From Wenjunlia vitaminophila DSM 41686 (GTDB lineage Bacteria > Actinomycetota > Actinomycetes > Streptomycetales > Streptomycetaceae), in NCBI RefSeq assembly GCF_000380165.1, contig NZ_KB904669.1, positions 62,185-126,184 on the forward strand: a DNA stretch of 64,000 nt, read 5' to 3'. Positions 9,606 through 11,902 of the stretch are shown here, piece by piece. Every line of letters begins with the position of its first letter. Within the stretch, counting starts at the first letter, position 1. Below the pieces are notes generated by a model. The model did no database searches. It was not told where the DNA came from and saw only the letters and a program-made list of their open reading frames with translations. The translations under genes were made by a program, and so were the position numbers.

Positions 9606-10370
9606 TCACCCCGGCAGCAGCCGGCCGATCTCGGTGAGCACCGCGTCCACGTGGGGACGGACCCGCGCCTTCAGCTCCCGGCTCCAGTTCTCCTGGGAGT
9701 AGGGCGTGGTGAGGTAGAGCTCCCTGGCGTGTTCCAGGACGGGGCGCTGTTCCGGGGGGAGCCGGGCGAGTGCCCAGTCAGCGGCGGCGTCCTTCGGCCT
9801 GATCTCGCCGGTGGCGAGCGTGGTCCAGACGCGCGCCAGGGTCAGCACGACGTTGCGGGTGTCGCACTCCAGGTCGTCGAGCAGGCCCGGAACGCCCGAC
9901 ACACTGGCCCGGACCAGGTCGGCGTGGGGAACGCGGTCCAGGACCCGCGCCGGTGGCGGGCCGCTGAGGGCGTGGTCACCGGACAGCACCATCGTGACCA
10001 GCAGGGCGAGGTCCGGCGTGGGCTCCGGCTGAGGGGGGCCACCCACCAGGAACTCGTGACGGAGCCACTCGCCGTAGAGGAAGTCGGCGGTCGGTGGGAA
10101 CCGCCACGGCCGGACCTCGGACTGGACGACCACGGTGAGCTCCACCGGGCGGAGCCCGTCCGGCGAACCGGACCCCGAGACCTCCAACAGCCCATCGAGG
10201 AGCGCCCGCCGTTCCCGGTCGTTCATGCTCCGCCGCGAGACGACGAGGACATCCACGTCACTGGCGGGTTTCAGGCCGCCGAGCACGCCGGACCCGTGGA
10301 GGTACGTCCCGATGGCCTCCGGCCCCAGGACACGGCCGACCAGGCCCGCGACCTCCTCGACCTGGTGCAT
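9606..10370 (-). CDS. AadA-like (ANT(3'')-type) nucleotidyltransferase
   Basis: A 254-aa protein, close to the ~260 aa of AadA aminoglycoside adenylyltransferases. The nucleotidyltransferase active site G-S-G-V-L-G-G-L-K-P-A-S-D-V-D-V-L-V is intact, with the GS and D-x-D metal ligands. F-L-Y-G-E-W-L-R and the C-terminal helical domain with K-D-A-A-A-D-W-A also match AadA. AadA enzymes AMPylate streptomycin and spectinomycin; chromosomal actinobacterial homologs are mostly untested. The start is the ATG at 10370 (M-H-Q-V-E-E-V). It is a stand-alone gene. Confidence 0.8.
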   Translation of the reverse strand: MHQVEEVAGLVGRVLGPEAIGTYLHGSGVLGGLKPASDVDVLVVSRRSMNDRERRALLDGLLEVSGSGSPDGLRPVELTVVVQSEVRPWRFPPTADFLYGEWLRHEFLVGGPPQPEPTPDLALLVTMVLSGDHALSGPPPARVLDRVPHADLVRASVSGVPGLLDDLECDTRNVVLTLARVWTTLATGEIRPKDAAADWALARLPPEQRPVLEHARELYLTTPYSQENWSRELKARVRPHVDAVLTEIGRLLPG

Positions 10371-10508
10371 CGCGCCAGTATGGCGGTCGGCACAGGCCAC
10401 CGCACGTGCGTTTGCGGGACGGCGGGTGTTCCGGAGAAGGGCGCCGCCCCTCCACCGCGTGCCCTCCGCGGGCAACAGCAGGTCGAACGCCCCGGCTGAG
10501 CTGCGCTC

Positions 10509-10545
10509 TTGACCTCAACCTTGGTTGAGGTACAACACTTGGCGC
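10509..10545 (+). promoter_or_regulatory. SoxR/MerR-type operator-promoter, probably leaderless
   Basis: A near-perfect inverted repeat ACCTCAACC-TT-GGTTGAGGT (10512-10531) lies between a -35-like TTGACC (10509-10514) and a -10-like AACACT (10534-10539). The spacer is 19 bp, the over-long spacing typical of MerR-family promoters, and the layout parallels the SoxR site (CCTCAAG...CTTGAGG). A start site 7 nt after the -10 falls on the ATG at 10546. No MerR gene lies next to it, so regulation would be in trans. Confidence 0.65.
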
Positions 10546-10959
10546 ATGAAGATCACAAACAGCAGCACCATTCTCTTCCGCAACACCATGCGCATCACCG
10601 ACGGCCACCTCGACGGCTTCCGGCACGCCATCGCACAGGCGGTGGCATTCGCTCAAGAGCACGGCCCACAGCTCATGGTGGAGGTCTTCATCGACGAGGA
10701 GCGGATGCTGGCACACAGCTTCCAGCTTTACCGCGACTCCGATGCCATCCGCACCCACTGGCGGCTGTCGGACCCGTACATCCGCGAGGTGATGGAGCAC
10801 TGCACCGTGCAGCACTTCGAGATATTCGGTGAACCGGACCACGACATCGTGGCGGCCCTCAAGACCCCGGACGGCGAATCCTTCTCTTTCACCATCTCGC
10901 CCCGCCTCGCCGGCTTCAACCGTCTTGAGACATCCGAATGGGACGAATCGCCCTCTTAA
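10546..10959 (+). CDS. Small soluble protein behind a SoxR-like promoter, function unknown
   Basis: A 137-aa protein beginning M-K-I-T-N-S-S. A TTG upstream at 10525 lies inside the operator and is rejected. The predicted fold alternates beta strands and helices, with an H-x-x-x-F-I-D-E segment. The size and pattern (V-E-V-F-I-D-E ... H-C-T-V-Q-H-F) recall antibiotic-biosynthesis-monooxygenase/ABM-like proteins, but I cannot confirm this. If the promoter call is right, it belongs to a redox- or metabolite-responsive regulon and is made from a leaderless mRNA. Confidence 0.6.
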   Translation: MKITNSSTILFRNTMRITDGHLDGFRHAIAQAVAFAQEHGPQLMVEVFIDEERMLAHSFQLYRDSDAIRTHWRLSDPYIREVMEHCTVQHFEIFGEPDHDIVAALKTPDGESFSFTISPRLAGFNRLETSEWDESPS

Positions 10960-11137: not shown

Positions 11138-11485
11138 ATGGCCGTTCGCCGTGTCATGCCCATCATCCAGTCAGAAGCCACGCGGGAGAGCCGGGAGTTC
11201 TACGGCCTGCTGGGCTTCGAGGAAGCCATGGATCTCGGCTGGATCGTGACGCTCGTCTCGCCGTCCAATCCAGCAGCGCAGGTCAGCGTGGTGACCAGCG
11301 ACAAGACCGCCCCCGTCACCCCCGACGTGAGCATCGAAGTGGATGACGTGGAGGCGGTTTACGCGGCCGTGCGGGACAGCGGCGCGGAGACCGTTCATCC
11401 CCTGCAGGACGAGGAATGGGGAGTACGGCGGTTCTTCGTCCGTGACCCCAACGGCCGCGTCGTCAACGTTCTGAGCCACCGCTGA
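11138..11485 (+). CDS. VOC superfamily (glyoxalase/bleomycin-resistance-like) protein
   Basis: A 115-aa single-module VOC protein. The ATG at 11138 follows GGAG with 6-nt spacing. Paired beta-alpha-beta-beta-beta halves are evident: R-V-M-P-I-I-Q-S opening the first, and V-S-I-E-V-D-D-V-E-A-V-Y opening the second. The usual terminus F-F-V-R-D-P-N-G-R-V-V-N-V carries Asn where metal-dependent members often have Glu, so metal catalysis is uncertain. Members range from lyases to drug-binding resistance proteins. Confidence 0.8.
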   Translation: MAVRRVMPIIQSEATRESREFYGLLGFEEAMDLGWIVTLVSPSNPAAQVSVVTSDKTAPVTPDVSIEVDDVEAVYAAVRDSGAETVHPLQDEEWGVRRFFVRDPNGRVVNVLSHR

Positions 11486-11521: not shown

Positions 11522-11902
11522 TCAGAGCGGGTTGAGGCGGGCCTTGAGCAGGCAGAACTCATTGCCCTCGGGGTCGGCGAGAACGTGCCAGGGCTCGTCG
11601 CCGGTCTGGCCGATGTCGGCCGGGCGCGCCCCGATCGCCAGGAGGCGTTCGAGCTCGGCGTCCTGATCGCGGTCGGTTGCGTTGACGTCGATGTGCAGCC
11701 GGGGCTTCCCCTGCTCCGGCTCGTCCCTGCGGCTGAGGATGATCGTCGGTTGCGGGCCGCCGAACCCTTCGCGCGGACCGATCTCGAGGGTGCCGTCCTC
11801 CTCGCGGTCGAGCACGACGAAGTCCAGGACCTCGCACCAGAACCGCGCCAGCACCTCGGGGTCGCGGCAACCGAGCACGAGCTCACTGATACGACATGCC
11901 AT
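11522..11902 (-). CDS. VOC-family glyoxalase-like protein
   Basis: A 126-aa protein of the glyoxalase-like subgroup common in actinobacteria: I-S-E-L-V-L-G-C-R-D-P-E-V-L-A-R-F-W at the start, R-L-H-I-D-V-N-A-T-D-R-D in the middle and V-L-A-D-P-E-G-N-E-F-C-L-L at the end. It is convergent with the other VOC gene, 36 nt away. The two proteins differ enough that they are not a recent duplication. The ligand is unknown. Confidence 0.8.
   Translation of the reverse strand: MACRISELVLGCRDPEVLARFWCEVLDFVVLDREEDGTLEIGPREGFGGPQPTIILSRRDEPEQGKPRLHIDVNATDRDQDAELERLLAIGARPADIGQTGDEPWHVLADPEGNEFCLLKARLNPL

Follow-up and report, generated by a model that had tools for sequence, protein, structure and literature searches.

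Distortion of the DNA and realignment of the promoter by oxidised SoxR constitute the mechanism known for the E. coli protein. The closest described counterpart to the locus presented here is the SoxR regulon of Streptomyces coelicolor, for which six members have been published (SCO7008, SCO1909, SCO1178, SCO2478, SCO4266, and SCO0320ext) and which includes a monooxygenase, an epimerase/dehydratase, a flavoprotein reductase, oxidoreductases, and an ABC transporter (PMC4146615). Monooxygenases are mentioned there in known SoxR regulons, namely SCO1909 of S. coelicolor and PA2274 of P. aeruginosa (PMC4146615). With regard to the protein product, the nearest structure is that of MupZ, which acts in the polyketide pathway for mupirocin and has been linked, together with MupW/MupT, to the formation of a tetrahydropyran ring (PMC7619045).

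The locus shares with the S. coelicolor regulon the box, the promoter type, and the small set of transporter and redox or tailoring genes, with four of the five host sites preceding gene kinds of that regulon. The gene in the window is absent from the published list of six (PMC4146615), and SCO1909 is set apart from it by description, being said to resemble ActVA-ORF6 (PMC4146615), whereas the window protein has no Pfam match.

It is proposed here, with a probability of about 0.85, that positions 10509-10545 form a SoxR-activated promoter of a leaderless transcript, the product of which is a small quinone- or polyketide-modifying enzyme. Layout, rarity, conservation, co-variation, and fold were computed, and from these we infer binding, activation, start site, and substrate. 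A SoxR dimer carrying a [2Fe-2S] cluster would sit on CCTCAA-N6-TTGAGG inside a 19-bp spacer; redox-active compounds would oxidise the cluster, and the oxidised protein would distort the DNA such that RNA polymerase could use the misaligned -35 and -10 elements. The transcript would start at, or one or two bases from, the ATG and be translated without a leader, yielding a small alpha/beta-barrel enzyme that would most likely oxidise or otherwise modify a quinone- or polyketide-like metabolite.

Promoter architecture

The coordinates of the features are collected in Table 1. An earlier note on this DNA had placed a palindrome in the spacer between TTGACC and AACACT, and direct reading of the sequence bears this out; the spacer is over-long and the dyad lies inside it. 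When up to three mismatches are allowed, the 20-mer palindrome occurs once within the window (the whole stretch of 64,000 nucleotides that was analysed), the average in shuffled sequence being 0.03. A generic sigma-70 scan found nothing, as expected, because the scan allows only spacers of 16-18 bp. Six bases separate AACACT from the ATG and the box ends 15 nt before it, a geometry that, together with the conservation of the box-to-start distance, fits a leaderless transcript.

Table 1. Coordinates of the promoter elements and genes discussed in the text.
Feature	Position	Strand	Remark
-35 hexamer TTGACC	10509..10514	+	direct reading; last three bases shared with palindrome
SoxR-box palindrome ACCTCAACC-TT-GGTTGAGGT	10512..10531	.	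20 bp; basis: sequence, conservation, co-variation with SoxR
18-bp core of SoxR-box palindrome, CCTCAACCTTGGTTGAGG	10513-10530		exact match to CCTCAA-N6-TTGAGG
Spacer between TTGACC and AACACT	10515-10533		19 bp
-10 hexamer AACACT	10534..10539	+	direct reading; 19 bp from -35
Predicted leaderless 137-aa gene	10546..10959	+	ATG 10546, stop 10957-10959; product of antibiotic-biosynthesis-monooxygenase fold (model)
Divergent gene, AadA-type aminoglycoside adenylyltransferase C-terminal domain	9609-10373	-	PF13427, E 8e-31
Glyoxalase/bleomycin-resistance-fold gene	11156-11482	+	downstream of 137-aa gene
Glyoxalase/bleomycin-resistance-fold gene	11525-11902	-	downstream of 137-aa gene

The protein product and its relatives

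Of 394 genomes sampled from the host's family, 31 contain a relative of the 137-aa protein, two of them as weak matches only, and a named collection has 71 such loci, in Streptomyces, Nonomuraea, Nocardia, Nocardiopsis, Saccharopolyspora, Prauserella, Amycolatopsis, and others; the closest named homologs belong to Streptomyces. The residues N13, Q42, S58, H71, H85, and C86 are invariant among the homologs.

The gene had initially been described as one of unknown function. What stands of this description is that the protein matches no family in Pfam (none at E up to 1) or NCBIfam and scores below the curated Pfam cut-off of PF03992; what can be added, from a structural model and its fold matches, is a probable antibiotic-biosynthesis-monooxygenase fold. 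Searches of the sequences of solved structures, with both the protein and its alignment, returned no credible relative. A single-sequence structure prediction was discarded (pLDDT 43.7). The AlphaFold model built from a 47-sequence alignment (pLDDT 84.7) has the order beta-alpha-beta-beta-alpha-beta and adopts a ferredoxin-like alpha/beta-barrel, with Z of 9-15 to many members of the PF03992 fold. The best fold match is MupZ (PDB 6fxd; Z 14.9, 117 residues, rmsd 2.3, Foldseek E 3.5e-7, 14% identity), followed by unnamed proteins, SnoaB, and many monooxygenases of the same fold (Z about 10-12). SnoaB, a cofactor-independent oxygenase (PDB 3kg0), shares the fold, with Z 11.1 over 94 residues at 15% identity. 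The protein is thus outside PF03992 by profile score and, as modelled, of the antibiotic-biosynthesis-monooxygenase kind by fold. No SoxR link of MupZ was seen in the accessible parts of the MupZ literature examined.

The chemistry is where the strongest competing explanation lies, namely that the gene is SoxR-controlled but encodes a cyclase, an isomerase, or a binding protein of the same fold instead of an oxygenase. This is a serious contender, falling somewhat short of an even chance. The role ascribed to MupZ (PMC7619045) points in its direction, as do the polyketide cyclases and methylmuconolactone isomerases in the list of fold hits. Against it, most of the hits that bear a name are monooxygenases, either putative or cofactor-independent, weak matches to PF03992 (E 0.0048 at best) were obtained for 19 of the 47 homologs, and monooxygenases are known members of SoxR regulons, as SCO1909 and PA2274 illustrate (PMC4146615).

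SoxR and its boxes in the host genome

A single host protein scores above the SoxR cut-off (TIGR01950, 217 bits versus a cut-off of 116.9), and its alignment with the E. coli SoxR of PDB 2zhg takes in the recognition helix. The CX2CXCX5C cluster motif is present in all 68 SoxR sequences compared, that of the host among them. SoxR was also above the cut-off in all 54 related genomes examined and was found in 368 of 394 genomes of the host's family; since it is this widespread, its co-occurrence with the gene is uninformative and was dropped as evidence.

The pattern CCTCAA-N6-TTGAGG has five sites in the 6.43-Mb host genome, and the reversed control pattern has none. The four sites other than the one in the window precede genes for an SgcJ/EcaC-family protein, an ABC transporter, a zinc/quinone oxidoreductase, and an NADPH-FMN reductase, each with TTGA before the box on the matching strand. 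All five boxes precede genes of the SoxR-regulon type, which lends comparative support to the suggestion in the earlier note that the gene belongs to a small SoxR regulon. As a separate observation, the ATG of the SgcJ/EcaC-family gene (L002, minus strand, site 1501-1518) lies 16 nt after its SoxR box, and this gene may be leaderless too.

Operator letters and the SoxR recognition helix

The recognition helix of SoxR reads SALHFYE or SALHYYE (histidine type, H) in 34 of the 68 sequences and has arginine in place of the histidine (R) in the other 34. Operators of the homologs were picked blind to their half-site letters, by a TTGA anchor and the best self-complementarity, and 6 of 56 rows were dropped for having no dyad in register (L045, L100, L110, L082, L084, and L114). 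Genomes with both SoxR types (seven rows with a dyad, carrying 0, 1, 4, 5, 5, 5, and 7 operator mismatches) were excluded from the comparison. Perfect operators were found in 13 of 23 H-only rows versus 0 of 20 R-only rows (Fisher p 3e-5, rank test 1e-6), these p-values being too small because related genomes were taken as independent. Within the host's family the counts are 11/15 versus 0/9, and outside it 2/8 versus 0/11, where Fisher's test is not significant (0.16) and the rank test gives 0.009.

The same pattern appears at the unrelated FMN reductase gene, for which 37 of 55 genomes were searched, with matches in 32; from these, 30 loci were taken in addition to the host's own. After removal of 6 of these 31 loci for lack of an anchored dyad (G159, G406, G407, G408, G418, and G419), perfect boxes were found in 10 of 14 H-only genomes versus 0 of 11 R-only genomes, with the boxes chosen as those nearest to the classic one, a choice that works against the result. 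In R-only genomes the second base is the main one to change, C being replaced by T. The G333 box is preceded by TGGA, and an arginine-type soxR adjoins the FMN reductase in G115, G173, G286, and G333.

The gene tree has at least two places where rows from R-only genomes, their operators altered, are nested in H groups: G145, and G333/G286/G112, the change being slight in the latter. The H and R types need two changes on the SoxR tree, and the types may have a single origin. It is these nested cases and the second gene, and not the p-values, that carry the co-variation argument. In three Nocardiopsis genomes that carry SoxR of both kinds, the operator resembles the arginine type, and the classic CCTCAA-N6-TTGAGG has no site in the arginine-only genomes G145, G260, G215, G173, G115, and G112. 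A second, arginine-type SoxR at L212 (G012:C1:1116699-1117118) gives a match containing a TGA stop and is possibly a decaying paralog.

These comparisons bear on the improbable alternative that the dyad is bound not by SoxR but by a different MerR-family regulator of the host, such as one resembling TipA. The host does have 13 MerR_1 domain matches, of which SoxR is one, operators of MerR proteins share the same architecture, and the homologs of Actinomycetospora (L100 and L110) have a MerR gene immediately behind them. Set against this are the single host protein that passes the SoxR cut-off, the kinds of genes behind all five boxes, the scarcity of MerR genes near the homolog (6 of 101 loci), and the operator itself, which follows the SoxR recognition helix at two unrelated genes and so favours SoxR over other MerR proteins. 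Of the original designation "SoxR/MerR-like", a SoxR-type promoter is retained as the probable one, and the label can be narrowed to SoxR.

Conservation of gene and promoter

A TTGA-anchored dyad precedes the gene at 76 of the 87 distinct loci with a homolog and persists where protein identity is as low as about 46%. At 68 of the 76 dyad-bearing loci the nearest start codon in frame falls 15-16 nt past the dyad, which makes the predicted leaderless layout a conserved one, and of 70 loci counted for the -10, 68 have A at its second position. The proposal of a leaderless start at the ATG of the 137-aa gene gains comparative support from this distance. The genes neighbouring it in the window (an AadA-type gene in divergent orientation and a pair of glyoxalase-like genes) recur beside no other homolog locus and were dropped as a clue, so that it is the gene plus its promoter that, as judged across loci, is the conserved unit. 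A hairpin 3' of the stop codon was likewise rejected, being no stronger than in shuffles (z -0.66), as were apparent domain fusions at L034, L040, L050, L100, and L110, whose long open frames were taken to run on past the gene itself.

The dyad is missing at 11 of the 87 loci. Copies in Nonomuraea and Actinomycetospora lie directly behind other genes and have no dyad; the MerR gene adjoining the Actinomycetospora homologs (L100 3001-4209, L110 3001-4207) has the helix VTVRTLHHYDE. At L033, L034, and L074 the dyad has been lost with the -35, the -10, and the start codon position kept, the distance between the two hexamers being read as 18 bp and not 19; a possible reading is that these promoters have escaped from control toward constitutive expression.

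On comparative grounds, conservation is the strongest evidence against a chance origin of the dyad. That the inverted repeat arose by chance, the promoter being ordinary or inactive, is extremely unlikely on this ground already, and the exactness of the match and the empty control pattern speak against it further, even though 3 of 100 shuffled windows held a match at up to three mismatches and the few homologs just named keep their hexamers without the dyad.

Significance

On comparative grounds, the 137-aa gene very probably belongs to the SoxR response, to which it would be a new addition. The layout and the regulator are well supported, the start site and induction we infer, and the chemistry is a guess. 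Taken jointly, the two series of operators suggest, with rather better than even odds, that actinobacterial SoxR proteins fall into DNA-reading classes (SALHFYE versus SALRFYE/TALRFYE), that their targets keep the promoter frame and rewrite the half-sites (CCTCAA to CTTCAA, CTTGAA, or CCTCCA) to match the SoxR of the genome, and that the gene spreads among actinobacteria as a self-contained unit of gene plus operator, retuned to the SoxR of the recipient. This two-class pattern might be the part less expected by a specialist. A search of the literature, with few subscription papers within reach, found neither a mention of the 137-aa gene among SoxR targets nor an account of two classes of SoxR operator.

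The finding would add a widespread, unnamed gene family, with a testable enzyme class, to the SoxR response of antibiotic producers. The paired series of SoxR proteins and operators would provide a natural experiment on the joint change of a regulator and its sites, and a search with the classic soxbox alone would miss SoxR targets wherever the only SoxR of a genome is of the arginine type.
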